From assembly GCA_025999935.1 (NCBI GenBank), contig BNXY01000042.1:1-22060 (forward strand): a DNA stretch of 22,060 bases, written 5' to 3'. Positions 100-22,060 of the stretch are shown one piece after another. The notes under the pieces were generated by a model. That model was not told the DNA's origin and ran no database searches. It saw only the letters and a list, made by a program, of their open reading frames with translations. The translations under genes were made by a program, and so were the position numbers. How positions within the stretch are numbered: the stretch's first letter is position 1; each line of letters opens with the position of its first letter. Origin of the DNA: Bacteroidia bacterium (lineage in GTDB: Bacteria; Bacteroidota; Bacteroidia; Bacteroidales; Azobacteroidaceae).

Positions 100-103
100 T
101 TAC

Positions 104-1510: not shown

Positions 1511-1548
1511 AATCGTGTGTGTAAAAATGAACATTGTCAAATTCGGCA

Positions 1549-1581
1549 CAAATATATGTATTATTTTTCATAAAAAAACAA
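1549..1581 (-). promoter_or_regulatory. Candidate Bacteroidota promoter of the DUF3575 operon
   Basis: On the minus strand, TATATTTG (1556-1549) matches the -7 consensus TAnnTTTG exactly. A TTG at 1581-1579 could be the -33 element, but the 22-bp spacer is slightly longer than the usual 19-21. The -7 box covers the GTG at 1549, which supports translation starting downstream at 1510. Confidence 0.45.
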
Positions 1582-1605
1582 ATTCAAATATTATTTTTCA
1601 TAAAA
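1560..1605. repeat. 16-bp direct repeat upstream of the DUF3575 gene
   Basis: ATTATTTTTCATAAAA occurs at 1560-1575 and again, identically, at 1590-1605, a period of 30 bp. One copy overlaps the spacer of the candidate promoter, so the pair could be a tandem regulator site. It may also be simple AT-rich duplication. The rest of the 1,550-1,761 intergenic stretch shows nothing else recognisable. Confidence 0.55.
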
Positions 1606-1761
1606 TAGCAAAATTAATTTGATTTATAGCAGAAATTGTTGTGATTCGTTGTTGGTTTTTGCATTTTCAGAAACGAGCGTTTTTGACAACAAGACACCTC
1701 ACCTCTTCTTCTTTGAGAATATAACGCCTCAAAAAAAGATTTAACCTAAAATTGTTCTATT

Positions 1762-3588: not shown

Positions 3589-3616
3589 CGTTTTTTTATT
3601 TAATAAAACATGCACA

Positions 3617-3624
3617 CAAAGATA
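3617..3624 (-). promoter_or_regulatory. -7 box for the helicase gene
   Basis: TATCTTTG on the minus strand is a perfect TAnnTTTG match, about 28 bases upstream of the chosen ATG at 3588. No TTG lies at the ideal -33 distance, so strength is uncertain. The box sets the translational start downstream of 3615. Confidence 0.55.
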
Positions 3625-3643
3625 TAAAAAATAAATTATTTTG

Positions 3644-3674
3644 TTGATATATTCAAAAATATGACGTAATTTTA
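3644..3674 (+). promoter_or_regulatory. Candidate promoter of the tricorn-protease operon
   Basis: TTG at 3644-3646 and TAATTTTA at 3667-3674 are separated by 20 bp. This fits the Bacteroidota -33/-7 arrangement except for the last base of the -7 box. It lies 31 bases before the ATG at 3706 and overlaps the upstream region of the divergent helicase gene. Confidence 0.45.
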
Positions 3675-3705
3675 CCGATTAATTTGATTATAAATGTTTA
3701 TATCG

Positions 3706-6942: not shown

Positions 6943-6949
6943 AAATAAA

Positions 6950-8494: not shown

Positions 8495-8500
8495 CACATT

Positions 8501-9610: not shown

Positions 9611-9654
9611 GCGATTACCGTTTCTCGAACTGCTTTATTTTGAAAATTATTGCT

Positions 9655-9662
9655 TAACTTTG
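9655..9662 (+). promoter_or_regulatory. -7 box upstream of leuS
   Basis: TAACTTTG is a perfect TAnnTTTG match 35 bases before the leuS ATG. The nearest upstream TTG (9640-9642) is only 12 bases away, so the -33 element is unclear. Confidence 0.5.
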
Positions 9663-10143
9663 TACCTTAATTTTGAATTTTAACAAAGAAATAAGCAATG
9701 GAATACAATTTTAGCGAAATCGAGAAAAAGTGGCAGGAATATTGGAAGGAAAACAAAACTTACCAAGTAACAACAGACAAGAGTAAACCGAAATTTTATG
9801 TGCTGGATATGTTTCCGTATCCATCGGGAGCCGGTTTGCATGTCGGACACCCGCTTGGATACATCGCTTCCGACATTTATTCGCGCTATAAACGCCTGAA
9901 AGGATTCAATGTGCTACATCCCATGGGCTACGATGCTTACGGACTTCCGGCGGAACAATACGCCATTCAAACGGGTCAGCATCCGGCGATTACGACGGAA
10001 CAAAACATCAGCCGTTACCGGGAGCAATTGGACAAAATCGGTTTCAGTTACGATTGGAACCGCGAAATCAGAACTTGCGAACCGGAATATTACAAATGGA
10101 CACAATGGGCATTTGTTCAGATGTTTAACTCTTATTATAAGAG

Positions 10144-10171
10144 ACAAGAGCCAAGAACCAAGAGTCAAGAC
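10144..10171 (+). repeat. 4 x 7-bp tandem repeat inside leuS
   Basis: Four consecutive 7-bp units ACAAGAG, CCAAGAA, CCAAGAG, TCAAGAC (consensus NCAAGAN). They encode approximately [10 protein letters not shown] between NSYYK and CARPISEL. Other Bacteroidota LeuRS, as I recall them, have only a short link at this point. Confidence 0.75.
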
Positions 10172-10594
10172 AATGGTTGCGCACGCCCGATTTCGGAATT
10201 AATTGAACATTTTGAAAAATATGGCTCGGCAAATTTGAATGTTGCTCAAACAGAAGAATTGCATTTTTCGGCAGAAGAATGGAAAGCCAAAACAGAAAAG
10301 GAGCAACAGGAAATATTGATGAATTATCGCATCGCCTATCTGGCTGATACGATGGTCAATTGGTGTCCGGCTTTGGGAACGGTTCTGGCGAATGACGAAG
10401 TGAGTGAAGGTCTGTCCGTTCGCGGAGGTCATCCGGTGGAACAACGCAAAATGCGCCAATGGAGCCTGCGCGTTTCGGCTTACGCTCAACGGTTGCTCGA
10501 TGGTTTGGATAAAATTGATTGGACGGAATCTCTGAAAGAAACACAGAAGAATTGGATAGGGCGGAGTGAAGGAGCGGAATTGAATTTTAACGTC

Positions 10595-10622
10595 GTAGGG
10601 GCGTTGCGCGCGACGCCCTTAC
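10595..10622. repeat. 28-bp palindromic element inside the leuS editing domain
   Basis: GTAGGGGCGT and ACGCCCTTAC form 10-bp arms (one G/T wobble) around TGCGCGCG, which is itself nearly self-complementary. It is translated in frame as part of [11 protein letters not shown] just before [10 protein letters not shown]. It looks like a REP-type palindrome inserted into a gene without breaking the frame. Confidence 0.75.
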
Positions 10623-11341
10623 AATTCACGGTGTTCACAACCCGTGCCGATACAATTTATGGCGTTACCTTCATGGTATTAGCACCGGAAAGTGAATTGG
10701 TTAGCCAACTAACCACACCCGCACAAAAGGCAGAAGTATTGAACTATTTGGAAGCAACAAAAAAACGCACCGAGCGCGAACGAATCGCCGACCGGAAAGT
10801 AACCGGCGTATTCTCCGGCTCGTATGCCGTCAATCCGGTAAACGGAGAAAGTATTCCCATCTGGATTTCCGATTATGTATTAGCCGGTTACGGAACAGGA
10901 GCCATCATGGCAGTTCCCGCTCACGACAGCCGCGACTATGCTTTTGCCAAACATTTCAATTTGCCGATTATCCCATTGATTGAAGGCGCAGACGTATCGG
11001 AAGAAAGTTTCGATGCCAAAGAAGGAATCATGATAAACTCCGGATTTTTAAATGGATTGACCGTCAAAGAAGCCATTGCAGCAGCCAAAAAATACATTGC
11101 AGAAAACAACCTGGGCAAAGTAAAAGTAAATTTCCGCCTGCGCGACGCCATTTTCAGCCGTCAACGCTACTGGGGCGAACCTTTTCCGATTTATTACAAA
11201 GACGGAATGCCTTACACCGTGAACGAAAAAGATTTGCCGATTGAACTGCCGGAGGTGGATAAGTTTTTGCCTACGGAAACGGGGGAGCCGCCGCTGGGGA
11301 GGGCGAAAGATTGGGTGTATAAATCATTATAAATTAAAACA

Positions 11342-11935
11342 ATGATTTATAGTATTTTGATTTTGATGAGTATTATTTTGTTCTATGTCCTGTTTCTGGG
11401 CAGGACGATTATGTTATATCGCCAGAAAATAAAAGTTTGGACTATTGGAACGAGTACAAAAAACGTATTGGAAACCGTATTGGAAAATATACTGCCGCCT
11501 TTTCTCTTGATATGGGGTGTTTTAATTATTCTGTCGGCAACCAATGTACATATAAATAACATTGTGTCAAACAGTATGTTCAGCATTGACTGGATAAAGG
11601 CGACAGGTATAATTTTATGTTACAGCAGTTTGTTAATATTCCTATGGGCTTTGATTTCTTTCGGGAAAAGTTGGCGTATCGGCATTGACGAGAAAAACAG
11701 CAACGATTTGATAACGACAGGCGCATTCCGTTATTCGCGCAATCCAATATTCTTGTTTATGGATATGTATTTTACCGGTATTATGCTGGTATATCCAACT
11801 ATAATAATCATTTTGCTGACTATTTGCTCAATAATAGGGATACATTTTCAAATATTGCGGGAAGAGAAATTTCTTTCCAAAAAATTTGACAGCATATATC
11901 TGGATTATAAACGACAAACAAGACGATATTTTTAA
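11342..11935 (+). CDS. ICMT/PEMT-like membrane methyltransferase
   Basis: The 197-residue integral membrane protein has about five hydrophobic segments. The C-terminal region carries the family signature: TTGAFRYSRNPIFLFMDMY (cofactor-binding arginine and RNP), then EEKFLSKKF, Y-x-x-Y (YLDY) and a final Arg-rich RQTRRYF. This matches the isoprenylcysteine carboxyl methyltransferase / phospholipid methyltransferase-like superfamily, which uses S-adenosylmethionine on membrane substrates; the bacterial substrate is unknown. Full length for the family. It is the first gene after the leuS breakpoint, only 9 bases past that stop, with no obvious promoter of its own. Confidence 0.8.
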   Translation: MIYSILILMSIILFYVLFLGRTIMLYRQKIKVWTIGTSTKNVLETVLENILPPFLLIWGVLIILSATNVHINNIVSNSMFSIDWIKATGIILCYSSLLIFLWALISFGKSWRIGIDEKNSNDLITTGAFRYSRNPIFLFMDMYFTGIMLVYPTIIIILLTICSIIGIHFQILREEKFLSKKFDSIYLDYKRQTRRYF

Positions 11936-11941
11936 AATAAT

Positions 11942-12112
11942 GGAAACGAAGCCATAGTTTTTGATACCCCGACAGACAACGAAGCGTCCAAAGAACTGAT
12001 AAACCGGATAACCTCAACGATGAATTTGAAAATAACAGTTGTTATTCCCAGACGCGGTAAATTAGGTGAAACAGAGTTGCTTGATTATACAATAGATTTG
12101 TTTGAGCAATAA
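11942..12112 (+). pseudogene. Orphan C-terminal gene fragment
   Basis: A 56-codon open frame ends in TAA at 12110-12112 and has no start codon at its beginning (first internal ATG at codon 27). It is in the same frame as the ICMT-like gene but follows that gene's TAA. The peptide runs GNEAIVFDTPTDNEASKE ... VVIPRRGKLGETELLDY ... FEQ. It looks like the end of a real protein with alternating hydrophobic strands, but I do not recognise the family. It is probably debris from a deletion. Confidence 0.45.
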
Positions 12113-12133
12113 TATTTTGAAAAACAAATATTT

Positions 12134-12150
12134 AACCGCTCAAAAAGAGA
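12134..12150 (+). repeat. Family B hairpin leader, degenerate copy before rhuM copy 1
   Basis: AACCGCTCAAAAAGAGA retains the AACCGC start and a 3-bp CTC/GAG stem, followed by an A-rich stretch; the loop is not GNRA. It lies 22 bases before the ATG at 12173. Confidence 0.45.
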
Positions 12151-12172
12151 AGAAAAATTAGGAGAAAATTTT

Positions 12173-12761
12173 ATGACAACAGAAATCAAAAAACAGAAAG
12201 AATTTGTGATTTATCAAACCAATGATGGTTCACCGAAAATTGAAGTACGACTTGAAAACGAGACAATTTGGCTTACCAATCTTCAACTTGCGGAATTGTT
12301 TCAAACAACAAAATCCAATGTGAGCGAACATATTAAGCATATTTTTGAAGAGGGCGAATTGAGTGAAAATTCAGTTGTTCGGAATTTCCGAACAACTGCC
12401 ACCGACGGTAAAAATTACGACACAAAACACTACAACCTTGATATGATTATTTCGTTGGGCTATCGTGTCAATTCGCGCGTGGCAACCCATTTTCGCATTT
12501 GGGCGACACAACGCCTGAAAGAATACATTGTAAAAGGTTTTACGATGGACGACGAGCGACTCAAAGGCAATGGCGGCGGAAATCATTGCCGAGCGAGCCA
12601 ATGCAGGCGAGCCGTTTATGGGACTTTTGAGCTTTTCGCATGGCGGCGTGAGCAAAAAAGATATTTCCGTTGCAAAAAATTATTTGACCGAGGAAATCAC
12701 GCCCGTTGAACAGGCTTATCTGGAAGAACTTAAAAAGATGGGAAAAAGTATAAAATCGTGA
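12173..12761 (+). pseudogene. rhuM-family gene, copy 1, internally deleted and frameshifted
   Basis: The N-terminal ~131 codons match the RhuM virulence-protein family: EFVIYQTNDGSPKIEVRLEN, TIWLTNLQLAELF, VSEHIKHIFEEGEL, YNLDMIISLGYRV, HFRIWATQRLKEY, MDDERLKGNGGG. At about 12,570 the match jumps by a +1 frame into the family's distal part (AAEIIAERANAGEPFMGL, then KDISVAKNYLTEE). It then jumps again, in frame, to the terminal TPVEQAYLEELKKM. Intact members are roughly 330 residues; about half is missing. The first frame stops after 178 codons with a nonsense tail. A role in DNA binding or host interaction is suggested for the family but not established here. Confidence 0.85.
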
Positions 12762-12766
12762 TATTT

Positions 12767-12783
12767 AATCGCTTTGAAAAAGG
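12767..12783 (+). repeat. Family B hairpin, very degenerate copy
   Basis: AATCGCTTTGAAAAAGG: stem CTTT/AAGG (one G-T pair) closing a GAAA loop, followed by A-rich sequence. Most bases differ from other copies, yet pairing and a GNRA-type loop are kept. No gene follows directly except ATGAAATAA. Confidence 0.35.
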
Positions 12784-12822
12784 TAAAAAATTAAAGAATA
12801 TGAAATAATCAAAAGAAATGTA

Positions 12823-12830
12823 TAATTTTG
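12823..12830 (+). promoter_or_regulatory. -7 box for the peptidase E gene
   Basis: TAATTTTG matches TAnnTTTG exactly. Transcription would start near 12,836, placing the family B hairpin (12843-12858) at the very 5' end of the mRNA. No clear TTG -33 is seen. Confidence 0.5.
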
Positions 12831-12842
12831 TCATTTAGTATC

Positions 12843-12858
12843 AACCGCTCACAAGGGC
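12843..12858 (+). repeat. Family B hairpin leader before peptidase E
   Basis: AACCGCTCACAAGGGC: stem GCTC/GGGC with a U-G pair, loop ACAA, then an A-rich spacer. Fifteen bases separate the hairpin from the ATG at 12874. Confidence 0.6.
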
Positions 12859-12873
12859 AAAAAGTTAGAATTT

Positions 12874-13503
12874 ATGAGTAAAAAACTGTTTTTATCATCG
12901 TATTTTTCGGGCGTAAAAAACTTGTTGCCCGACTTTACAAACAACGAATGTTCGGGTAAAAAAGTCGTTTTCATTCCAACGGCAAGCGTTCCCGAAAAGG
13001 TAACATTTTTTGTCGGTGCAGATAAAAAAGCATTGGCAAAACTTGGGCTAATCATCGACGAATTGGAAGTTTCAACTGCCCCTTACGAGGAAATCGCAAG
13101 CAAAATTTCCAATGCCGATTATCTTTTTGTAGAAGGCGGAAATACGTTTTTCCTTTTGCAGGAACTGAAACGCACAGGCGCGGACAAACTCATCGTGGAA
13201 CATATCAATAAGGGAAAACTGTATATCGGCGCGTCTGCGGGGTCAATGATTATTTCAAAAGACATTGAATATGTGAAATTTATGGATAATCCGAAAGCCG
13301 CGCCCGATTTGAACGGCGACTTTTCTGCGCTGTCAGTTCTTGATTTCTACATTGTTCCGCACTGTACGAATTTTCCGTTTAAGAAAGCGGCTGAAAAAAT
13401 GGTTGCAGCATATTCGGAAACGCTTGATTTAAGATCGATTAGCAACAATCAGGTAATTGTTGTCGATGGCGATAAGATGGAAACGCTAACGGTAGAAAAA
13501 TAA
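12874..13503 (+). CDS. Peptidase E-like (S51) dipeptidase
   Basis: The 209-residue cytoplasmic protein is normal length for the S51 family. It has KKLFLSSYFSG at the start and VVFIPTAS near residue 31. YLFVEGGNTFFLLQELK precedes the nucleophile elbow GASAGSM with S121, and VPHCTNFPF carries H163; these correspond to Ser120 and His157 of Salmonella PepE. The family removes N-terminal aspartate from dipeptides; related cyanophycinase-like enzymes also exist. The gene has its own -7 box at 12823 and a family B hairpin leader, so it looks like a self-contained transcription unit. Its TAA directly abuts a family A repeat. Confidence 0.88.
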   Translation: MSKKLFLSSYFSGVKNLLPDFTNNECSGKKVVFIPTASVPEKVTFFVGADKKALAKLGLIIDELEVSTAPYEEIASKISNADYLFVEGGNTFFLLQELKRTGADKLIVEHINKGKLYIGASAGSMIISKDIEYVKFMDNPKAAPDLNGDFSALSVLDFYIVPHCTNFPFKKAAEKMVAAYSETLDLRSISNNQVIVVDGDKMETLTVEK

Positions 13504-13527
13504 ATCCGCGTTATCTGTGTGCAAAAA
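13504..13527 (+). repeat. Family A repeat, two-unit copy
   Basis: ATCCGCGTT then ATCTGTGTGC followed by AAAAA. Units are 9-10 bp. It begins immediately after the stop of the peptidase E gene. Confidence 0.75.
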
Positions 13528-13533
13528 TTCAAA

Positions 13534-13589
13534 CTTCAAGCAAAGAAGTCAAACAAGTTAAAAAATACAGAGATGAGTAAACAGAAAAT
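13534..13589 (+). repeat. Family C repeat, copy 1 (rhuM 5' end)
   Basis: Segment containing GTCAAAC, TTAAAAAATACAGAGATGAG and AAACAG. Here it comprises the leader and first codons of rhuM copy 2 (ATG at 13574). Related copies at 16,336 and 17,986 are not followed by rhuM coding sequence. Confidence 0.7.
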
Positions 13590-14156
13590 CAATAAACAGG
13601 ACGAAATTGTAATCTATCAAACAGCCGATAATACGCCTCAAATAGAGGTGCATTTGAGCGATGAAACGGTTTGGCTTTCGCAGCAGCGAATTGCGGACTT
13701 GTTCCAAACTTCGCGTACCAATGTAGTGGAACATATCGACCACATTTACACAGAGGGCGAATTGGACAAAGAGGCAACCTGTCGGAATTTCCGACAAGTT
13801 CGCACTGAAGGAACCGTCCGCATTTGTCCGATGCCGTTGTTGCGAAAAATTATTTGTTCGAAAAAGAACTTCGGGCATTAAATCAGATTGTTTCGGGTTA
13901 TCTTGATTTTGCCGAACGGCAAGCTGAACGCGAAAATCCGATGACAATGAAAGATTGGGCAACGCACCTTGATAATATTCTGACTTCCACAGGCGAAAAG
14001 CTGCTGAAAAATGCAGGCAAAATTTCGCACGAACAGGCAATGGAAAAAGCCAAAGCCGAATACCGGAAATATCAGCAAAAAACGCTTTCAGATGTGGAAA
14101 CAGCGTATTTGGAAACAATAAAAATGATTGAAAAATCGGTAAAAGAGAAAGAATAA
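13574..14156 (+). pseudogene. rhuM-family gene, copy 2, internally deleted and frameshifted
   Basis: The first ~80 codons match RhuM N-termini: MSKQKINKQDEIVIYQT, IEVHLSDETVWLSQQRIADL, VVEHIDHIYTEGEL, CRNFRQVRTEG. At about 13,815 the homology jumps by a +1 frame into the C-terminal third: SDAVVAKNYLFEKELRALN, then GYLDFAERQAERENPMTMKD, LDNILTSTGEKLLKNAGKIS, YRKYQQKTLSDVETAYLETI. The intervening ~130-150 codons are missing. Read from 13574, the frame ends at 13881 with an unrelated tail; the second frame has an ATG at 13824 but no leader of its own. An alternative upstream ATG (13519) would add family A/C-derived residues and is less likely. Confidence 0.85.
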
Positions 14157-14165
14157 TGAGAAAAT

Positions 14166-14191
14166 ATTTGCGTTATCTGCGTGCAAAAAAA
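14166..14191 (+). repeat. Family A repeat, two-unit copy
   Basis: ATTTGCGTT then ATCTGCGTGC followed by A-rich sequence, 9 bases after the end of rhuM copy 2 and immediately before a family B hairpin. Confidence 0.75.
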
Positions 14192-14201
14192 TAAAATAAT
14201 T

Positions 14202-14217
14202 AACCGCCCGAAAGGGC
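14202..14217 (+). repeat. Family B hairpin leader before the DUF169 gene
   Basis: AACCGCCCGAAAGGGC: perfect 4-bp stem GCCC/GGGC with a GAAA tetraloop, then seven A. Sixteen bases separate it from the ATG at 14234. Confidence 0.75.
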
Positions 14218-14233
14218 AAAAAAAGTAAATAAT

Positions 14234-14938
14234 ATGGAAATAGAAACATTTATAAACAACTACAAGGAAGCGTTTGGTGAAGCTGTTGAGCTGCCGATTG
14301 TGTTTTGGTATTCCGATACGGCAATTGCAAACACAGAGAAAATCGGCGGCTGTTTTTTCAAAGGAATGAAAACAGTCAGAGAGGGCAATGCTCTTGGTTT
14401 AAGCGTGGATAATATCGGTTGCGGCGGCGGTAAATTTTACACAGGATTTACCGATATGCCCGAACACGTACCGAATTTTGTTTCGCTGAAAGAAAAATAC
14501 AAGAAAACCCCCGAAATGATGCTGGATTTTGCGCAAAAATTGGGTGTTTCCCGCACCGAAAAGAAATATCTTAATTTTGTACGTATCGACAAAATCAAGA
14601 ATTTGGACGATGTTGAGGGAATTATATTTTTTGCCAATCCAGATATAATTTCGGGCTTAACTGCGTGGGCATATTTTGATAATAATGCTGATGATGCGGT
14701 TGCTGCGATATTTGGCTCGGGCTGCTCTGCAATGGTTACAAATGCGGTAATAGAAAATGAGCGAAACGGGCGGCGGACATTCTTGGGCTTGTTCGACATC
14801 TCTGTTCGCGTGCATTTTGAGCCGAACATTTTGGGTTTTATGATACCGATGTGCCGTTTCAAAGAAATGTATCATACTATACGCGATTGTTGCCTGTTTG
14901 ATGCGCACGCTTGGGAAAAAATCAAAGGAAGAATTTAA
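14234..14938 (+). CDS. DUF169 family protein
   Basis: The 234-residue soluble protein has no signal peptide. It matches DUF169 across its length: PIVFWYSD near residue 21, KGMKTVREGNALGLSVDNIG then CGGGKFYTGF, VEGIIFFANPDIISGL, and a C-terminal GSGCSAMVTNAV with NILGFMIPM. The conserved Cys/Gly groups suggest a bound cofactor or metal, but the family's function is unknown. It is a single-gene unit with a family B hairpin leader upstream and a family A repeat immediately after the stop, the clearest example of the cassette-like layout in this region. Confidence 0.87.
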   Translation: MEIETFINNYKEAFGEAVELPIVFWYSDTAIANTEKIGGCFFKGMKTVREGNALGLSVDNIGCGGGKFYTGFTDMPEHVPNFVSLKEKYKKTPEMMLDFAQKLGVSRTEKKYLNFVRIDKIKNLDDVEGIIFFANPDIISGLTAWAYFDNNADDAVAAIFGSGCSAMVTNAVIENERNGRRTFLGLFDISVRVHFEPNILGFMIPMCRFKEMYHTIRDCCLFDAHAWEKIKGRI

Positions 14939-14939
14939 A

Positions 14940-14967
14940 AAATCCGCGTTATCTGTGTGCTGAAAAA
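14940..14967 (+). repeat. Family A repeat, two-unit copy
   Basis: AATCCGCGTT then ATCTGTGTGC and TGAAAAA, starting one or two bases after the DUF169 stop codon. Confidence 0.75.
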
Positions 14968-14974
14968 GTTTAAA

Positions 14975-15061
14975 AAAACGGAGCGTACCGTTTGGCAAAA
15001 AGGAACGTACCTTTTGAGGAAAAGGTATATACCTTTTACCAAAACGATGCTTGCCTTTTTG
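14975..15061. repeat. Four tandem palindromic units of 21-23 bp
   Basis: Units start at 14975, 14997, 15020 and 15041, each beginning AAAA and each with an internal palindrome: ACGGAGCGTACCGT, AAGGAACGTACCTT, AAGGTATATACCTT and a degenerate fourth. Between units 1 and 2 the second base of the arm and its partner change together (C-G to A-T). Unit 3 forms an 18-bp perfect palindrome, AAAAGGTATATACCTTTT. It lies between the DUF169 and YkvA genes. Confidence 0.75.
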
Positions 15062-15140
15062 AAAAAATAATGGAAAAACATAAAACCATTGACATAATAA
15101 AATAAAACCGCTAATATATAATCATAAAAGGATAATTGTT

Positions 15141-15545
15141 ATGGGAAATAAAACAATTGTAAAATTCAAAGAAAAGGCACGGGAATTGAAATATAATTTA
15201 TCGGCATTATACCTTGTATATAAAAGAAAGGACGTATCAATTTATGCCAAGGCGGTTATAATAATAACTGTTGGATACGCCTTGTCCCCAATTGATTTAA
15301 TACCGGATTTTATACCTGTTATCGGCTATTTGGATGATATTATAATTGTGCCGTTACTTATATATTTAGCATTAAAATTAATACCCAAAGAAATAATGGA
15401 TGAATGCAGGGAAGAAGCAAAAGATATGTGGAAAGATGGAAAACCAAAGAAATGGTATTATGCAATACCTGTAATTATTATATGGTTATTGATAATATTT
15501 ATAATCATAAAGAATATATTTTGTTACTACTCAGCTTCTCTCTAA
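15141..15545 (+). CDS. YkvA/DUF1232 membrane protein with a MITE-derived C-terminus
   Basis: A 134-residue protein. The DUF1232 core is complete: DVSIYAKAVIIITVGYALSP, then IDLIPDFIPVIGYLDD, a signature of small YkvA-like membrane-associated proteins of unknown function. A second hydrophobic segment (WYYAIPVIIIWLLIIFIIIK) lies near the C-terminus. The last seven codons (YYSASL and stop) fall inside the left terminal inverted repeat of the element at 15525-15865, so the original C-terminus was probably altered by that insertion. The ATG at 15141 follows an A-rich leader with AAAGGA at 15127-15132. Confidence 0.85.
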   Translation: MGNKTIVKFKEKARELKYNLSALYLVYKRKDVSIYAKAVIIITVGYALSPIDLIPDFIPVIGYLDDIIIVPLLIYLALKLIPKEIMDECREEAKDMWKDGKPKKWYYAIPVIIIWLLIIFIIIKNIFCYYSASL

Positions 15546-15865
15546 ATAATAATTTACGTTGCTCGTCATCCGAGCTTGACCCCCTAACCCGAAGGGTTGA
15601 ATGTGAAACAACGTTCGGCGGAGCCAATAACCCCCAGTGAAGCGTAGCGACTGGGGGTGGTAATGGACACACACACTCCCTCAACCCCGAAGTGGGTTGA
15701 ATTTATTCATTCATTAACGAGCATGTTCAACCCCTGTTCGGGGTTGAAGAGAGAGAGTCGCATCTTCTACCCCCAGTCGCTTCGCTTCACTGGGGGTTAG
15801 TCACATTAAAGACCTTCGGTCTTCCCATTGCGTTAAATTATTATTTAGAGAGGAGCTGAGTAGTA
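15525..15865. mobile_element. 341-bp MITE-like element with ~31-bp terminal inverted repeats
   Basis: The left end (15525 on) and the reverse complement of the right end (15865 back) both read TACTACTCAGCTYCTCTCTA and continue AATAATAATTTA, with one mismatch in about 31 bp. If the outer TA is a duplicated target, the element is 15527-15863, as expected for IS630/mariner-type transposition; no longer target duplication is visible. The interior has no coding potential but is full of nested inverted repeats: a 30-bp arm at 15629 matched by 15769-15798 with one mismatch, and smaller hairpins at about 15584, 15680, 15726 and 15811. No transposase for it is in the window. Confidence 0.85.
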
Positions 15866-15957
15866 CCTATATTTTTTAAGACTAACTGAAATAACCAATA
15901 AAAACATTATTTTACAAAAACATATTTTATAAATTTTAAATTAAAGGAGATAAAAAA

Positions 15958-16337
15958 ATGCCCATAGAAATTGCAACAAACAATAAAAACGAAATTATTT
16001 TATATCAGCCCGATAACGCTATTCAGTTGGAGGTATTGGTAGAGAATGAAACCGTGTGGCTTTCGCTAAACCAGATGACAGCACTTTTCAACAGAGATAA
16101 ATCGGTTATATCCAGACATATAAAAAATATATTTGATGAAGGAGAATTGGCTAAAATTTCAGTTGTTGCAAATTTTGCGACAACTGCTGCAGACGGCAAA
16201 ACATACATGACCGTTTTCTATTAATAGACAACGATTTATATCATATAGGCGCGTCATTGAAAGATTTGGGCAAAAAACTGTTTGCCTTTTCTATAATGGA
16301 AATGTCGGCGACTGAATTATTGAGAAATATTATTTAA
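15958..16337 (+). pseudogene. rhuM-family gene, copy 3, N- and C-termini joined
   Basis: The first ~82 codons match RhuM-like N-termini of the Asp-Lys-Ser type: NEIILYQPDNAIQLEVLVEN, TVWLSLNQMTALFNRDKSVI, SRHIKNIFDEGELAKISVV, ATTAADGKTY. At about 16,206 a +2 jump enters a different terminal sequence, HDRFLLIDNDLYHIGASLKD then LGKKLFAFSIMEM, ending at TAA 16335-16337. I recognise that tail as the end of RhuM/ORF6N-like proteins with a phospholipase-D-like C-terminal part; HDRF carries the HxK/HxD-like position. The whole middle is missing. Translated from the ATG, the frame stops at 16224 after 88 residues. AAAGGAG at 15944 is a good Shine-Dalgarno, unusual for this region. Confidence 0.8.
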
Positions 16338-16383
16338 AGATGTCAAACAAATTAAAAAATACAGAGAAGAGTAAACGGAAAAT
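16336..16383 (+). repeat. Family C repeat, copy 2 (rhuM 5' relic)
   Basis: AAAGATGTCAAACAAATT, then AAAAAATACAGAGAAGAG and AAACGGAAAA. It resembles the start region of rhuM copy 2 but ends after 16 codons in TAA. It overlaps the last bases of rhuM copy 3. Confidence 0.65.
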
Positions 16384-16473
16384 AGAATAAATTGATTGTG
16401 CGATAGAAAGTATTGATTTTATTTATTGAAAAATTATTAGTAATTTCACCACATTAATTTTAACATTTTCAAA

Positions 16474-16956
16474 ATGAAAAAAATATCAGCATTATCATTA
16501 TTCATTGTATTTATAAATTTTACAGCAATGGCAAAAGAAATTAAATCGGAAATAGTTATCAATGTACCGCCTGAAAAGGTTTGGGCTGTGTTGACGGATT
16601 TTGGAAAATATCCTGAATGGAATCCGTTTATTACTTCTCTGAAAGGCGAAGTAGAAGTCGGAAACAAAATAGAAATTCGGATTGAGCCGCCCGAAGGTAC
16701 AGGCATGACGTTCAAACCCAAAGTGTTGGAAAAAACAGAAAACAAAAAAATTCGTTGGTTGGGCAGTCTGCTTTTCAAAGGGTTATTCGATGGCGAACAC
16801 TGTTTTGAACTGATTGACAACGGCGACGGCACAACGACTTTCGTTCAAAGCGAAAAATTTCGGGGAATTTTGGTTTGGGCGTTTGGAACGAAAAAAACCA
16901 AAAATGGTTTTGAAGCAATGAATTTGAAACTGAAAGAATTAGCAGAATCTGCGTAA
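16474..16956 (+). CDS. SRPBCC/START-like domain protein with putative signal peptide
   Basis: A 160-residue protein. Residues 1-20 (MKKISALSLFIVFINFTAMA) look like a signal peptide, which is uncommon for this usually cytoplasmic fold. The remainder matches the SRPBCC helix-grip fold: IVINVPPEKVWAVLTDFGKY, PEWNPFI, then WLGSLLFKGLFDGEHCFEL, DNGDGTTTFVQSEKFRG and a C-terminal helix. Ligand and function are unknown; members bind small hydrophobic molecules. The final codons (ESA and TAA) lie inside a family A repeat that continues to 16984, so the repeat has become the 3' end of the coding sequence. Confidence 0.82.
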   Translation: MKKISALSLFIVFINFTAMAKEIKSEIVINVPPEKVWAVLTDFGKYPEWNPFITSLKGEVEVGNKIEIRIEPPEGTGMTFKPKVLEKTENKKIRWLGSLLFKGLFDGEHCFELIDNGDGTTTFVQSEKFRGILVWAFGTKKTKNGFEAMNLKLKELAESA

Positions 16957-16984
16957 ATCCCTTAAATCTGCGTTATCTGCGTAC
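16946..16984 (+). repeat. Family A repeat, four-unit copy that supplies a stop codon
   Basis: Units AATCTGCGT, AAATCCCTT, AAATCTGCGTT and ATCTGCGTAC. The stop TAA (16954-16956) of the SRPBCC gene lies at the junction of units 1 and 2. Confidence 0.8.
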
Positions 16985-17001
16985 TGAAAAACAAAAAAAT
17001 C

Positions 17002-17029
17002 ATTCGTGAAAATTCGTGTAATTAGTGGC
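17002..17029 (+). repeat. Family D repeat, tandem ATTCGTG-type units
   Basis: Three units of 9-10 bp: ATTCGTGAA, AATTCGTGT, AATTAGTGGC, followed by an A-run and then the ATG of the DUF1016 remnant. It has the same architecture as family A but a different unit sequence. Confidence 0.65.
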
Positions 17030-17038
17030 AAAAAAAAT

Positions 17039-17521
17039 ATGAATCTACAAAAAATACAAATTGATTTTATTACCGAAATCAAGCAGAAAATTCGGCAGGC
17101 GCAGTACGAGGCGATGAAAGCCGTAAATGTGCAGTTAATCAATCTTTATTGGGAAATTGGAAAATCCATTGCCGAAAAACAGGCGGAAAATTGGGGCAAA
17201 TCAATCGTTTCCACGCTGTCGAAAGAATTGCAGGCAGAGTTTCCGGGCGCAAGCGGTTTCTCGGAAGGAAATCTTTGGTTGATGGCTCAATTTTATACTG
17301 AATACCAAGCGGTTGCAAATCTCGTACCATTGGTACGAGAAATTAGTTGGTCAAAACACGTTTCTATTTTAAAGAAATGCAAGGACAATCTCGAACGCGA
17401 GTTTTACATTCGTTCTACGCGGAAATTCGGCTGGACAAAAAATAAAGGAATATATGAAAATCAAAAAAACAAAACTCCCCGAAAATTCGCTTGTCAAAAA
17501 ATATATGCCTGCCGATTATAG
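17039..17521 (+). pseudogene. DUF1016/YhcG-like nuclease gene, 3' half lost
   Basis: The first ~135 codons match the DUF1016 N-terminal domain: ITEIKQKIRQAQYEAMKAVN, LINLYWEIGKSIAEKQ, ELQAEFPGASGFSEGNLWLM, REISWSKHVSILKKCKD and REFYIRSTRKFGWTKN. Intact YhcG-type proteins are about 340 residues and end in a PD-(D/E)XK nuclease domain, which is absent. Homology stops at about 17,443. The frame then runs on into the leader and start of the DUF2867 gene (ATG 17454) and terminates at 17521 with a nonsense tail. The cut joins directly to AAAGGA, the putative ribosome-binding site of the next gene. Confidence 0.82.
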
Positions 17522-17942
17522 CGAGGCATACGAAATGATTGTTGGCAAGAATAATCAATTAACGCCTGACAATCTGCTCATTGCGTTTTGGACAGATTTT
17601 CCTGTGTGGGTGCGTTGGCTGTTTAATTTACGCGATATTTTGGTAAAACCTTTTGGACTGAAGGGCGCAGATGAAAATTATAATTCTTTTCAGCAGAAAT
17701 TTACGAAAATGGTGCGTACAGGCGGAAATTACAAACAAATGAATATTCCTGCTAAAAGCGAAAACGAAACAATTTTGCAACTTGCGGACAAACATTTAAC
17801 TGCCGAATTGTCGTGCCATATAGAAAATAGCATTGATAATAAATTGAAAATCAGCATTATTACGCTTGTTCATTATCACAATGTTTTGGGCAAAATATAT
17901 TTTGCGGTTATCAAGCCCTTTCACAAGATTATTAAACGATAA
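17454..17942 (+). CDS. DUF2867 family protein
   Basis: A 162-residue protein, complete for the family. Visible conserved blocks are MPADYSEAYEM, LLIAFWTDFPVWVRWLFNLR, DILVKPFGLKG, DKHLTAELSCHI and the C-terminal LVHYHNVLGKIYFAVIKPFH. Members are small proteins of unknown function, sometimes linked to SRPBCC-like folds; the amphipathic, Trp-rich region suggests hydrophobic ligand or membrane contact. The start codon lies inside the overrun of the truncated DUF1016 gene, with AAAGGA 5 bases upstream. No promoter of its own is visible, so the upstream deletion may have changed how it is expressed. Confidence 0.82.
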   Translation: MKIKKTKLPENSLVKKYMPADYSEAYEMIVGKNNQLTPDNLLIAFWTDFPVWVRWLFNLRDILVKPFGLKGADENYNSFQQKFTKMVRTGGNYKQMNIPAKSENETILQLADKHLTAELSCHIENSIDNKLKISIITLVHYHNVLGKIYFAVIKPFHKIIKR

Positions 17943-17985
17943 TGAAAAGAAGCGTAAAAAGCAATGTAAAATCATAAAAATCAAC

Positions 17986-18041
17986 CTTCAAACAAAGATG
18001 TCAAACCCAATTAAAAAATACAGAGATGAGCAAACAGAAAA
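17986..18041 (+). repeat. Family C repeat, copy 3 (rhuM 5' relic)
   Basis: CTTCAAACAAAGATGTCAAA, then TTAAAAAATACAGAGATGAG and CAAACAGAAAA, joined nearly directly to a family B hairpin at 18050. The related stretch at 13534 leads into rhuM copy 2, so this looks like a leftover rhuM beginning. A 40-codon ORF (ATG 17998 to TAG 18120) spans it; I do not regard it as a real gene. Confidence 0.65.
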
Positions 18042-18049
18042 CAAATATC

Positions 18050-18065
18050 AACCACTTGAGAGGGG
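18050..18065 (+). repeat. Family B hairpin, degenerate copy
   Basis: AACCACTTGAGAGGGG: stem CTT/GGG with two U-G pairs and a GAGA (GNRA) loop, then AAAAAGGG. It is not close to a start codon of a recognised gene. Confidence 0.4.
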
Positions 18066-18080
18066 AAAAAGGGTAAAACA

Positions 18081-18184
18081 CGAAATCAATTTCGATAAAG
18101 ACATGTATTTGACTGAATAGAATTCGCTAAAATTATTAAATTGGCGAAATGGATTTCGACAAAGAAACAAATTTGACGAATTAT
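18081..18184 (+). repeat. Imperfect direct duplication upstream of the ATPase gene
   Basis: CGAAATCAATTTCGATAAAG (18081 on) and CGAAATGGATTTCGACAAAG (18144 on) are related over about 39 bp and start 63 bp apart. Translated, they read EINFDKDMYLTE and EMDFDKETNLTN. Between them TTCGC and GCGAA form a small inverted repeat. Confidence 0.55.
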
Positions 18185-18200
18185 ATTTCGGAAAAAATTG

Positions 18201-18208
18201 TATCTTTG
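18201..18208 (+). promoter_or_regulatory. -7 box of the AAA_14 ATPase gene
   Basis: TATCTTTG is a perfect TAnnTTTG followed by CACAAAA, a common Bacteroidota promoter context. Transcription would begin near 18,214, ruling out the upstream ATG at 18149 and fixing the start at 18227. The nearest TTG (18173-18175) is 25 bp upstream, longer than ideal. Confidence 0.6.
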
Positions 18209-18226
18209 CACAAAAATTTAATAGTT

Positions 18227-19501
18227 ATGGAAGATATAATTAACATTCAAAACCCGCATTGGAAAGGCAAATTTTATCAGAATTTGCATAAACGCGCAAC
18301 CATAGACAAATTGATAAACAACTTACAAGTTCGTCATATTCAAATACTTACAGGCATAAGACGAAGCGGAAAATCGTCTTTGTTTCGTATGCTGATAAAC
18401 GAACTTATGAAACAGGGAATACCGCCAAAATCAATTCTGTTTTTGAATATGGATGAGCCGCACTATTACGAAATCTGGGAAAATTCCGCACTGTTTTATA
18501 AAATTATTAATCTGGCGGAAAAAATGACAGGCGAAAAGGTGCAGTATCTTTTTTTAGACGAGGTGCAGGTTGTATATCGTTGGGAAAACTTTGTAAAAAG
18601 CACTTACGACAGCGAAATTTTCAAGAAAATTTTTGTTACAGGCTCAAATTCTTCGTTTTTGAACAATGAATATTCTACTTTGCTGTCGGGCAGATATTTA
18701 GCCAACAAGGTTTTTCCGTATTCGTTGAAAGAATTGTTTGAAAATAACGGCATAACCGATTATTTGACGCTTATTTCGGAACGAGCCGCTGTGTTGAGAA
18801 TGATTGACGATTGCTTGGAATGGGGCTGTTTCCCTGAAATTAAAGCATTGAAAAACAACGAAATAAAGTCAAATTTACTGAACAGTTATTTCGATTCAAT
18901 CATAATGAAAGATTGTGTCAGCCGCTACCAAATTGCTGATATTGCAGCGTTTAAGAAACTGCTTTTGTATTCGATTTCAAATGTCGGCGCGGTTTGTTCG
19001 TACAAAAGTTTGGGCGCGGCGGCGGGAACGAACGAAAATACGGCAAAAAAATATATTAACATTCTTGATGACAGTCATATCATTCAAGATGTGTCGAATT
19101 TTGCCTTTTCGTTAAAAGAAAATGTGCGGCAAAGTCATAAAATTTATGCGGCTGACACAGGTTTGGTAAATGCCGTTTCCTATCGTTTTTGGGACAATAA
19201 GGCGAAACTTTTTGAAAATTTTGTATTTAACGAACTGCAAAAACAGCAGCACGAAGAAATTACCTTTGCCAATGCAGGCGGCGAATGTGATTTTGTGATT
19301 AAAAACAGTTTTGATTACGAGGCGGTTCAGGTTTGCTATGAACTTACGCCTGAAAATCACAACAGAGAAATAAAAGGTTTTGAGAAAATCGAAAAAGAGG
19401 TAAAATTAAACCGCAAAACGATTATCACCTACAATCAGGAACAAACGCTTGGCGACATTGAAGTTGTGCCTGTTTGGAAATACTTTTTTAATAATAACTA
19501 A
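18227..19501 (+). CDS. AAA_14/DUF4143 ATP-binding protein
   Basis: The 424-residue protein starts at the ATG just after the -7 box. Walker A is GIRRSGKS (residues 43-50); Walker B is YLFLDEVQ with D111-E112; the sensor-like VTGSNSSFL and the LLSGR motif follow at about 135-150. A winged-helix-like stretch (AVCSYKSLGAAAGTNENTAK) precedes the C-terminal DUF4143 domain. That domain has nuclease-fold features LFENFVFNELQ, GGECDFVI and EAVQVCYEL (PD-(D/E)XK-like core). The family is common in Bacteroidota and archaea; its role is unclear, although regulatory or defence functions have been proposed for relatives. It is complete, with its own promoter, and is followed by a family B hairpin 8 bases after the stop. 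Confidence 0.9.
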   Translation: MEDIINIQNPHWKGKFYQNLHKRATIDKLINNLQVRHIQILTGIRRSGKSSLFRMLINELMKQGIPPKSILFLNMDEPHYYEIWENSALFYKIINLAEKMTGEKVQYLFLDEVQVVYRWENFVKSTYDSEIFKKIFVTGSNSSFLNNEYSTLLSGRYLANKVFPYSLKELFENNGITDYLTLISERAAVLRMIDDCLEWGCFPEIKALKNNEIKSNLLNSYFDSIIMKDCVSRYQIADIAAFKKLLLYSISNVGAVCSYKSLGAAAGTNENTAKKYINILDDSHIIQDVSNFAFSLKENVRQSHKIYAADTGLVNAVSYRFWDNKAKLFENFVFNELQKQQHEEITFANAGGECDFVIKNSFDYEAVQVCYELTPENHNREIKGFEKIEKEVKLNRKTIITYNQEQTLGDIEVVPVWKYFFNNN

Positions 19502-19509
19502 TAATTATC

Positions 19510-19525
19510 ACCCGCCCGAAAGGGC
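19510..19525 (+). repeat. Family B hairpin leader before the CPBP gene
   Basis: ACCCGCCCGAAAGGGC: GCCC/GGGC stem and GAAA loop, then eight A. Seventeen bases separate it from the ATG at 19543. Confidence 0.75.
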
Positions 19526-19542
19526 AAAAAAAATCAGAAAAT

Positions 19543-20265
19543 ATGTTTTTAAAAACAGGAATATTTATAGTTATAACATTGATAATTACTGTATTATTGG
19601 CAGTTGTGCAACAAAAAATCAATCTCGATTTTGAAAAAATAACATTGCCACAACTTGCGCCTGCACTTGCTTTTCTTGCGGTTTCGCTGATTTTTGCAAA
19701 TATTGCGTTTTCGGTAAATGTTGATTTTAACAAAAGCATTGCATTAAAAACGCTCATTGCATTTATTTTGCCGTTTTTGCTGTTTGGAATAGCGTTTTTG
19801 GCAGGAAAACTGACAGGTTTAAATGTAAAAATAACGGAAAATCTACAATCAATTTTACCAATTATGCTCATTGGCATTATAATAGGCGCGTTTGGCGAGG
19901 AAATCGGTTGGCGAAGTTTTTTGCAGCCGTTTTTAGAAAAGAAAAATTCTGTGTTAATCGCTTCTGTTTTAGTTGGCTGTATTTGGGGTTTGTGGCATAT
20001 CGGGCATTATAAAAACGGCTTGCTTTTTATGGTTGGCTTTCTGCTTTTTACCATATCTGCCTCAATTATTATCGTGTGGCTGCTGCGCGGAACGCAATAT
20101 AATTTGATTATCGCAGCGGTTTTTCATATTGCTGTAAATTTAGGTTTTGTCCTGTTTTTCAAAAACTCTCTGACAGACGCTAAACTAATAATTATCAACG
20201 GAATAATATGGTTAATTCCTGCAATAATTATTGTTTCACTAAATGGAAAATATTTTTTTAAATAA
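19543..20265 (+). CDS. CPBP-family intramembrane metalloprotease
   Basis: The 240-residue membrane protein has about seven or eight hydrophobic segments. Family motifs are intact: E119-E120 in GEEIGWRSFLQ, H152 in WGLWHIGH, and H195-x3-N199 in FHIAVN; these form the glutamate/histidine active site of the CAAX-protease and bacteriocin-processing (Abi) superfamily. Bacterial members can serve in peptide processing or immunity; the substrate here is unknown. A family B hairpin leader precedes it and another follows 7 bases after its stop, before the next gene. Strongly AT-rich codon use. Confidence 0.9.
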   Translation: MFLKTGIFIVITLIITVLLAVVQQKINLDFEKITLPQLAPALAFLAVSLIFANIAFSVNVDFNKSIALKTLIAFILPFLLFGIAFLAGKLTGLNVKITENLQSILPIMLIGIIIGAFGEEIGWRSFLQPFLEKKNSVLIASVLVGCIWGLWHIGHYKNGLLFMVGFLLFTISASIIIVWLLRGTQYNLIIAAVFHIAVNLGFVLFFKNSLTDAKLIIINGIIWLIPAIIIVSLNGKYFFK

Positions 20266-20272
20266 AATAATC

Positions 20273-20288
20273 AACCGCCCGCAAGGGC
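20273..20288 (+). repeat. Family B hairpin leader before the DUF6463-like gene
   Basis: AACCGCCCGCAAGGGC: GCCC/GGGC stem with a GCAA loop, another GNRA tetraloop. The loop differs from other copies while the class is kept. Fifteen bases separate it from the ATG at 20304. Confidence 0.75.
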
Positions 20289-20303
20289 ATAAAAAATAGA
20301 AAA

Positions 20304-20690
20304 ATGAATATAAAAACATGGTGGAAATACAGCGGAATTTTGTTGATTATAACGGCAATTCTGCACACACTCATAGCATTGGTTACGATATGGAAAAACG
20401 GCATTTTTGCGGAAATTGTTCGCAATGGCGTTTTTAATTCTATTGGCACCGACTTCAAACTTGGGATGGCATTTTGGTTTTTTGTTTGCGGTATTGCCCT
20501 TTGGATTCTTGGACAAGTTTTGCATTATTATATCAAACGCGAACAACAGCCTGCACCAAAGTTTTTGGGTTGGTTTTTGTTACTATTCAGTATTATCGGG
20601 TTGTGTTTTGTTCCATTATCAGGCTTTTGGCTATTTATTCCGCAGGGCTTGATAATTTTAGTTGGACAAAAATCTGCGAAAATCCGTTAA
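20304..20690 (+). CDS. Small four-helix membrane protein, DUF6463-like
   Basis: A 128-residue protein with four hydrophobic segments: YSGILLIITAILHTLIALVT near the start, MAFWFFVCGIALWILGQVLH, LGWFLLLFSIIGLCFVPLSG and FWLFIPQGLIILVG. The pattern, including the H in the first helix, the W-F pair and the PSGFWLFIP-type last helix, resembles DUF6463; function unknown. The final six residues (KSAKIR) and TAA are encoded by a family A repeat beginning at 20671, so the natural C-terminus may have been replaced. A family B hairpin sits directly upstream, giving a complete B-gene-A unit. Confidence 0.68.
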   Translation: MNIKTWWKYSGILLIITAILHTLIALVTIWKNGIFAEIVRNGVFNSIGTDFKLGMAFWFFVCGIALWILGQVLHYYIKREQQPAPKFLGWFLLLFSIIGLCFVPLSGFWLFIPQGLIILVGQKSAKIR

Positions 20691-20713
20691 ATCTGCGTTA
20701 TCAGCATGCAAAA
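20671..20713 (+). repeat. Family A repeat, four-unit copy that supplies a stop codon
   Basis: Units AATCTGCGA, AAATCCGTT, AAATCTGCGTT and ATCAGCATGC. TAA at 20688-20690 ends the DUF6463-like gene within units 2-3; the repeat encodes the terminal SAKIR. Confidence 0.8.
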
Positions 20714-20731
20714 TAAAAATAGCAAAAAATT

Positions 20732-21319
20732 ATGTCAGCCCCCCAATCCATAGAACACCACCCACTCACGCCCTTCCTCCCAAAGGACGCAAAATTGCTA
20801 ATGCTGGGCAGTTTTCCGCCGCAGAAAAAGCGTTGGTCGATGGAATTTTACTACCCGAATCTCAACAACGATATGTGGCGTGTGATGGGTTTGATATTTT
20901 TCGACGATAAAAATTATTTTGTAGATACCGCGCACAAGACTTTTCGCAAAGAGCTAATTATCAACTTTTTGACCGAAAAAGGAATTGCCTTGTTCGATAC
21001 CGCAACCGTGGTACGCCGCTTGAAAGACAATGCCGCCGACCAGTTTCTCGAAATTGTAGAAGCAACCGATATTCGTAAATTATTACAGCAACTGCCCGAT
21101 TGCAAAGCCCTTGCCGTTACGGGGCAAAAAGCGATGGACACGTTGCGCACACAATTGCAAGTAGAAGAACCGGCTGTGGGTAAAAGCACGGAATTTGTGT
21201 TCGGCAATCGCCCGATGCAGTTGTTTCGTATGCCTTCCACCTCTCGTGCCTATCCGTTGAAGTTGGAAAGCAAAGCAGCGATGTATGAAAAAATGTTGCA
21301 AGAAATTGGAATTAAATAA
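20732..21319 (+). CDS. Uracil-DNA-glycosylase-superfamily protein
   Basis: A 195-residue soluble protein. LLMLGSFPPQKKRWSMEFYY (G26-S27-x-P29) followed by PNLNNDMWRVMG resembles motif 1 of UDG-superfamily enzymes of the hypoxanthine-DNA-glycosylase / Mug-like type. LFDTATVVRRLKDNAAD and ALAVTGQKA are central strands, and RMPSTSRAYPLK near residue 168 fits motif 2 (the P-S-T-S-x-A leucine-loop region). The role is probably removal of a deaminated base from DNA; substrate preference cannot be read from the sequence. Codon usage is less AT-rich than in its neighbours, suggesting an independent origin. It is followed by rhuM copy 4. Confidence 0.82.
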   Translation: MSAPQSIEHHPLTPFLPKDAKLLMLGSFPPQKKRWSMEFYYPNLNNDMWRVMGLIFFDDKNYFVDTAHKTFRKELIINFLTEKGIALFDTATVVRRLKDNAADQFLEIVEATDIRKLLQQLPDCKALAVTGQKAMDTLRTQLQVEEPAVGKSTEFVFGNRPMQLFRMPSTSRAYPLKLESKAAMYEKMLQEIGIK

Positions 21320-21387
21320 ATTGAAAAAATCGTAACTTTGCCGGTAAAAAATGAGCATAATTATATAAAATAAACACAAATAAAAAT

Positions 21388-21909
21388 ATGTCAAATCAAC
21401 CGAATATCAAATCTTCCGCTGCCGAATACCTTACTTTCGTGGCTTCTAAGGGCGAAAATTATCAGAATATCGAAATTCGATACGAAAATGAAAACATTTG
21501 GCTCACGCAAAAAATGTTGGCTGCGCTTTATGATGTGGAGGTGCATACAATTAACTATCATATCAAAAAAATTTTTGAAGACAGGGAATTGAGTGAAGAT
21601 TCAGTTATTCGAAAATTTCGAATAACTGCCGCAGATAATAAGGAATACAACACGAATCATTATGATTTACAAATGATTATCGCTATCTGTTTCAAGGTAA
21701 ACAGCGGGCGGGCGGTGCAATTAGACCAGATTTTGCTTGCCAACAAATATGAACTTTTGCAAAATGCAGGCAGAATTTCGATGGAAATTGCCCGCCAACA
21801 CGCCGAAACGGAGTTTGAAAAATATCGAATAGAGCAAGACCAACTTTATGAAAGCGATTTTGACCGTTTTTTGCTGTTGGAAGAAAGTGTAAAACGGATT
21901 GAAAATTAA
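21388..21909 (+). pseudogene. rhuM-family gene, copy 4, in-frame internal deletion (mini-RhuM)
   Basis: The open frame of 173 residues compares with roughly 330 in intact relatives. Residues 1-110 match the RhuM N-terminus: EIRYENENIWLTQKMLAALY, HTINYHIKKIFEDRELSEDS, FRITAADNKEYNTNHYDLQM, GRAVQ. The sequence then continues, in frame, with the family's C-terminal segment LDQILLANKYELLQNAGRIS, RQHAETEFEKYRIEQDQLYE and SDFDRFLLLEESVKRIE. About 150 central residues are absent. Unlike the other three copies the deletion keeps the frame, so a shortened protein could be made. Listed as a pseudogene because the central domain is gone; it might be a functional variant. Confidence 0.8.
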
Positions 21910-22010
21910 TGATAAACCGCTTGGGGGCTGTTAGAATTATTGTTGGCAGGCGTAATCTGTTCAAAATTATACGAAATCAAAAAGTAAATAAATCCGCGCA
22001 AATCCGTTAA
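21909..22010 (+). other. 33-codon ORF ending in a family A repeat
   Basis: ATG at 21909 overlaps the rhuM copy 4 stop; the peptide starts MINRLGAVRIIVGRRNLF and ends SAQIR at a TAA supplied by the family A repeat at 21991. I do not recognise it. It may be a gene-end relic (compare the KSAKIR end of the DUF6463-like protein) rather than a true gene. Confidence 0.2.
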
Positions 22011-22030
22011 ATCTGCGTTATCTGCGTGCA
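21991..22030 (+). repeat. Family A repeat, four-unit copy
   Basis: Units AATCCGCGC, AAATCCGTT, AAATCTGCGTT and ATCTGCGTGC followed by AAAGAAATA. This is the cleanest four-unit copy in the window. Confidence 0.8.
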
Positions 22031-22060
22031 AAGAAATAAAAACATTAATTTAACAAAAAC

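Follow-up and report, generated by a model that had tools for sequence, protein, structure and literature searches.

Mobile insertion cassettes are short, non-autonomous repeat elements that frame and move unrelated genes. Gene mobilization mediated by miniature inverted-repeat transposable elements (MITEs) is described for the TIMEs (PMC4133298), and Bacteroidales carry rAID (recombinase-associated acquired interbacterial defence) arrays, rows of co-oriented, mostly short genes with low guanine-plus-cytosine (GC) content and conserved intergenic motifs (PMC12247911). In the latter source, rAID arrays are recognized by a predicted tyrosine recombinase upstream, genes of ~100–300 codons, GC under 41% and orphan immunity genes. 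Here we analyzed a window of 22,060 nucleotides, the complete contig C42 (BNXY01000042.1) of a Bacteroidales draft genome (G000; 3.16 Mb in 318 contigs, completeness 80.8%), and the gene array at positions 11,333–22,060 of it. Open reading frames and Pfam scans gave 10 intact and 5 broken or shortened genes in this array, all on the + strand, in line with an earlier note on this DNA that had counted at least ten small intact genes plus broken ones on one strand. The 3′ repeat of its units is here called A, and their 5′ leaders B, C and D.

Like the rAID arrays of that source, the window array is co-oriented, consists mostly of short genes, has a low GC content (36.6%, against 43.5% upstream) and conserved motifs, and comes from the same order of bacteria; the likeness in the intergenic motifs lies in the presence of A, B, C and D. 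It differs from that description in that family scans of the window proteins found no immunity family and that its genes carry differing leaders. No upstream tyrosine recombinase was seen, contig ends cutting both this array and a second one on contig C24 of the same genome. The DUF169 gene (41.4% GC) and a glycosylase-like gene (45.6%) lie above 41%, and the AAA_14 gene, at 450 aa, exceeds the length range. The array on C24 is itself rAID-like, with Imm11-like immunity paralogues (one of them scanned), several of which stand behind leader C.

The earlier note had been reminded of integron cassettes, with other boundary sequences and no integrase. The layout is indeed alike (single-gene units, a 3′ repeat, one orientation, shuffled order) and no integron integrase was found on the array contigs of this genome, nor in 20 of the 21 loci tested, which comprised arrays, leuS and related sites; an integron as such was rejected. 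In contrast to integron cassettes, the units carry leaders, they have no single joining point, and A was not attC-like in the stretches tested. Two single A copies folded at −3.1 and −0.6 kcal/mol against −2.9 and −2.2 for shuffled sequences, A with B of the window at −7.3 against −2.3 (standard deviation 1.5), a value arising from two separate short stems, and A with B of G006 at −4.9 against −3.5; no attC-like fold was found in these four stretches, on which no attC model was run. With the TIMEs of PMC4133298 and with mobile insertion cassettes, the array shares short non-autonomous repeats that frame and move unrelated genes, and it differs in its single half-elements, their direct orientation, the many units in a row, and in that recombination rather than transposition would move the units. 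Terminal inverted repeats, a MITE trait, are present in the full A element outside the array, whose own copies are single halves. The array had no megablast match among 50,697 phage and 72,556 plasmid records, in a search that detects only ~85% identity or more, and a known phage or plasmid origin was rejected at that sensitivity. Neither the A core nor comparable cassette arrays or genes flanked by such repeats were found in the open-access literature searched.

Units shared between species and their junctions

The array was compared by blastn with 38 genomes of the same genus (genomes are cited by G number), with a closer comparison of 24 stretches, and the following holds among the matches listed. 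The pepE, SRPBCC and DUF6463 units recur at 92–97% identity in G005, G006, G039 and G043 and at 94–99% in the nearer relative G004, and pepE, SRPBCC and DUF169 recur at 96% in the relative MS499-82 (BNTU01000029.1). In contrast, the N-terminal half of leuS, taken as a core control, is 91% identical to the own copy in G004, 79% in G006, 78% in G043 and 75% in G005, and the synonymous divergence of leuS between G000 and G006 is ~1. The shared units sit in other orders in other species, the order NlpE-pepE-SRPBCC being common to G039, G005 and MS499-82. Block ends were examined in ten stretches picked for holding such blocks (23 blocks of at least 150 bp and at least 90% identity). Of the 46 ends, two coincided with contig ends and were left out; of the 44 that remained, 30 fell at gene edges, where 3.8 were expected, and none of 20,000 random placements reached 30. 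These sequence comparisons support gene shuffling between related species.

Several of the junctions map within A or to its end. Alignment of six loci with SRPBCC followed by A revealed five different next genes, with homology stopping about the end of A: YhcG in G000 and G004, DUF6463 behind B in G006, a nitroreductase behind B in G039, a polyketide-cyclase-like gene in G005 and DUF169 in MS499-82. Likewise, seven loci with DUF6463 followed by A had six differing downstream sequences, and the DUF6463 copies in G006 and on contig C3 of G004 are cut inside A. The same cyclase-like gene, together with its leader, follows the A of SRPBCC in G005 and the A of DUF6463 in G039. Gain or loss between A copies was observed in two cases: G039 has one extra block between two A copies relative to G005 (B-nitroreductase-flavodoxin-YjbR-DUF6463-A), and G004 reads DUF169-A-DUF3781-A-YkvA where the window reads DUF169-A-YkvA, the difference being DUF3781-A. 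Leaders are swapped as well, near the start codon. Upstream of DUF6463 lies B, or a stem resembling it, in G000, G004, G005 and G006; in G043 the leader is C, and in G039 it is neither of the two. Other leaders precede SRPBCC in G004 and DUF169 in MS499-82. Junction positions are mixed across A, B, C, D and poly-A, with no one fixed point.

A search of 49 stretches with profiles seeded from the window copies found six A (all +, E 5.2e-6 or better) and five B (E 7.7e-4 or better) in the window, and no copy of either in its bases 1–11,332. The own genome has 20 matches to the A core, of which 6 fall in the window, and none to its reversed control. Searched genome-wide as a bare pattern, B gives a weak signal, with 15 matches and 8 for the reversed control. 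B consists of a short stem and an adenine-rich tail ahead of the start codon. The motif TAnnTTTG, the promoter element of Bacteroidetes, lies within 60 bp upstream of 4 of 16 B copies, against 5% at random positions, and B looks like a 5′ leader. Complete B-gene-A units are those of pepE, DUF169 and DUF6463, the same three that the earlier note had named as clearest; the CPBP and AAA genes have B only, SRPBCC has A only, and others have leader C or D. The features of the window, with position and strand, are:

9698..11332, +, leuS N-terminal half, 544 aa, TIGR00396 positions 1–471, own stop
11342..11935, +, PEMT-like methyltransferase gene, beginning 9 bp past the stop of the leuS half
12173..12761, +, RhuM copy 1, broken
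12839..12863, +, B, hairpin leader of pepE, with a TAnnTTTG motif shortly 5′
12874..13503, +, pepE-like gene (Peptidase_S51); unit also in G004, G005, G039 and MS499-82
13501..13527, +, A, short form of 27 nt, 3′ of pepE
13540..13589, +, leader D, covering the start of RhuM copy 2; two further D copies exist
13571..14156, +, RhuM copy 2, broken, with an internal deletion relative to G004
14164..14190, +, A, short form, found by profile
14199..14222, +, B, leader of DUF169
14234..14938, +, DUF169 gene; unit also in G004 and MS499-82
14940..14966, +, A, short form, 3′ of DUF169; G004 has A-DUF3781-A instead
15141..15545, +, DUF1232/YkvA gene (Pfam)
15513..15877, no strand, MITE-like inverted-repeat element following YkvA; missing here in G004
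15892..15960, +, leader C, ahead of RhuM copy 3
15958..16336, +, RhuM copy 3, broken
16474..16956, +, SRPBCC gene; unit also in G004, G006 and G039, partial in G005 and MS499-82
16946..16990, +, A, full form of 45 nt, overlapping the SRPBCC stop
17041..17453, +, YhcG/DUF1016 N-terminal fragment; an intact 335-aa gene is at this place in G004
17454..17942, +, DUF2867 gene (Pfam)
18046..18070, +, B, weakest copy, 5′ of AAA_14
18149..19501, +, AAA_14/DUF4143 ATPase gene, 450 aa; PADLOC candidate PDC-S01 is a further match
19506..19531, +, B, leader of CPBP
19543..20265, +, CPBP (Rce1-like) gene (Pfam)
20270..20294, +, B, leader of DUF6463
20304..20690, +, DUF6463 gene; unit also in G004, G005, G006, G039 and G043
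20671..20713, +, A, full form, overlapping the DUF6463 stop
20732..21319, +, deoxyinosine-glycosylase-like gene, under the curated Pfam and NCBIfam cut-offs
21388..21909, +, RhuM copy 4, shortened
21991..22034, +, A, full form, final feature ahead of the contig end

The broken or shortened set comprises the YhcG/DUF1016 fragment and the four RhuM copies (12173–21909), none of which is intact and at least one of which, copy 2, lost internal sequence by a deletion whose ends overlap by 13 nt (positions 13806–13818, where the deletion joins). The MITE-like element also occurs on contigs C12 and C69 of this genome.

Repeat A outside the array and the competing explanations

Elsewhere, A occurs as an inverted pair of ~86 nt between ordinary genes, and two such palindromic elements fold to long hairpins (−40 and −42 kcal/mol); a single A makes up one half of this palindromic element, which is dispersed in these genomes. 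In 80 loci taken from a scan of genome contigs, 90 of 161 A hits had a partner in inverted orientation at most 120 bp away, and 71 lacked one. The exact A 19-mer was found in 6 of the 38 genus genomes, namely the own genome and five that, among the matches listed, have pepE, SRPBCC or DUF6463 units at 90% identity or more. Elsewhere in the phylum it was found in 3 of 295 genomes sampled, and a wider scan for A gave at least 117 stretches, from many other Bacteroidota and some Planctomycetaceae. With the exact repeat in so few genomes of genus and phylum, untranslated region (UTR) elements spread evenly through the lineage were rejected. The earlier note had held that A and B lying evenly next to core genes throughout the genome would speak against its reading; half of this applies, in that A stands between ordinary genes as a palindromic pair and B looks leader-like. 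A-type repeats are frequent in two Planctomycetaceae metagenome-assembled genomes (MAGs), Kf353_bin151 and Gsp477_bin102, and the sample codes Kf353 and Gsp477 recur among the Bacteroidota MAGs listed.

In contig C298 of G039, two A halves flank a GxxExxY gene, which encodes a PD-(D/E)XK nuclease (TIGR04256, PF13366). A also flanks a deleted GxxExxY derivative, judged by eye, on own contig C38, and in G043 a GxxExxY gene lies between A-like pairs on the same contig as a DUF6463+A unit, ~3 kb from it. All 14 GxxExxY genes were located by tblastn (three fragments and four weak matches were not used), and of the 13 with enough flank, 11 were flanked by inverted repeats, of several families, that exceeded the 95% point of mispaired controls. 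In the window array, A halves are present but no GxxExxY gene is. The GxxExxY genes of the genus, lying between inverted repeats of differing families, are possibly an undescribed mobile element.

The earlier note had proposed looking for a recombinase or transposase gene bearing the same ends. No tyrosine recombinase was found on the own array contigs C2, C24, C38 and C42, and 14 recombinase proteins had no match in 20 of the 21 loci, a search that unlike recombinases would escape. None of the stretches examined around this genome’s 20 recombinase loci contained A or B. The exception is G004, where two XerD-like recombinase genes adjoin the leuS N-half on the opposite strand; this locus is without A, B, C and D and has no match to the window array, and its XerD-like proteins score far under integron integrase cut-offs.

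We consider it probable that this is a repeat-anchored gene-exchange array, in which crossing-over between copies of A (and B) on transferred DNA swaps single-gene units. A single accessory gene would travel with its 5′ leader (B, C or D) and its 3′ repeat A, and DNA with such units would pass between related Bacteroidales by some transfer route, the carried genes presumably being of some use. Crossing-over at A, less often at B, C, D or adjoining poly-A, would insert, delete or swap units, so that the gene after a given A would differ by species. The crossing-over would be ordinary homologous or short-homology recombination, and this reading is ranked first, with a dedicated enzyme second, because known enzymes explain the gains, losses and neighbor swaps. 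Several observations weigh against it. The remaining 14 of 44 block ends lie away from gene edges (RhuM deletions, truncated SRPBCC and DUF6463, and others), the 23 blocks are not independent, some sharing a junction by descent, and several adjacent window genes are not separated by an A. Internal deletions have broken RhuM genes, YhcG is interrupted partway through at the start of DUF2867, and no crossover point within A could be fixed. A also occurs outside arrays, in many Bacteroidota and some Planctomycetaceae, and A-like flanks were found by profile in G049 and G052 too, so A alone is no predictor of an array. Most compared genomes are draft MAGs, and the leuS control is absent for G039 and MS499-82, with no leuS in the sets examined.

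A dedicated site-specific system, with a recombinase or a GxxExxY nuclease recognizing A (perhaps with B) as in an integron or a rAID array, seems doubtful. It would fit the layout of the genes, which share one orientation and low GC, are mostly short and have conserved motifs between them, as in rAID arrays (PMC12247911), as well as the inverted-repeat flanks of the GxxExxY genes and the position of A in G039 and G043. However, the recombinase searches argue against it, including the locus of G004 with its lack of A, B, C, D and array match, and so do two single A copies that fold no better than shuffles and junctions that mix A, B, C, D and poly-A. It is less likely still that A and B are ordinary UTR or terminator elements of the lineage, the genes having been moved by unrelated transfer and the repeats sitting where breakpoints are tolerated. 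The promoter-like motif near some B copies and the occurrence of A beside ordinary genes are consistent with this, and since selection for intact genes also expects intergenic breakpoints, the edge test alone does not exclude it. Such selection does not predict that homology should extend across A and cease near its end in five different contexts, nor that gains and losses should lie between two A copies. Also against this reading, exact A was found within the genus in the own genome and, among the matches listed, in the five others that carry shared units. An assembly or binning artifact, in which repeats joined unrelated contigs, is hardly credible: the genomes are draft MAGs of hundreds of contigs and the window contig ends just past an A, but SRPBCC-A-YhcG agrees in G000 and G004, NlpE-pepE-SRPBCC agrees in three genomes, and A is only 45 nt long. 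Of the gene-shuffling system suggested in the earlier note, exchange across species with junctions in or at the edge of A or B stands, and no machinery that would make it a dedicated “system” was found in the loci searched; its two alternatives, shuffling or lineage UTR elements, each proved partly true, as there are repeats and UTR pieces of the lineage and real unit exchange at them.

The split leuS gene beside the array

The earlier note overlooked that the leuS upstream of the array comprises no more than the N-terminal half of the gene. A separate contig (C14, from 19231) carries the C-half, which has a start of its own and other genes upstream of it; the array adjoins the N-half. Nine genomes of the genus, the own included, have leuS split at one and the same place, and others have it intact. 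Both halves were found in the eight others with the split (G001, G004, G006, G008, G010, G016, G018 and G020), the N-half of G001 being cut by a contig end. Where they share a contig, the halves are 2.5 kb apart in G006 (four open frames), 0.4 kb in G016 (a YhcG-like remnant) and 1.7 kb in G001 (DUF3843). Ratios of nonsynonymous to synonymous divergence (dN/dS) were 0.04–0.12 for six pairs of halves, with synonymous sites near saturation in most pairs, and both halves are under purifying selection in the pairs compared.

The leuS tree mixes split and intact species, with low backbone support. G021 branches within a group of split species that is well supported; its leuS is intact, with a longer linker, and suggests a re-fusion. 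Between G000 and G004 the N-halves are 91% and the C-halves 82% identical, which may reflect different histories of the two halves or mis-binning of one contig. In G043 (contig C12) the N-half continues in frame to 743 aa, fused to other sequence, and homologues of the glycosylase-like gene adjoin leuS halves in G006, G002 and G043. Aquifex has a split leucyl-tRNA synthetase; a search of the open-access literature for split forms of this enzyme returned only tRNA reviews and unrelated papers.

The split in leuS is an unusual state for an essential enzyme. More speculatively, and in our view rather unlikely, an undescribed Bacteroidota gene-capture process might connect these observations, in which GxxExxY nucleases and inverted-repeat ends (A) would make single genes portable in trans and arrays would grow at breakable places, including inside leuS, with several species expressing two proteins. 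Cassettes are normally explained by an integrase; here, units of leader, gene and end appear to swap across related species and no integrase has been found so far, and the unit ends appear to derive from a nuclease-linked repeat. The biogenesis of rAID arrays is described as an area of active research (PMC12247911), and exchange of this kind offers a testable route by which Bacteroidota may build arrays such as rAID.

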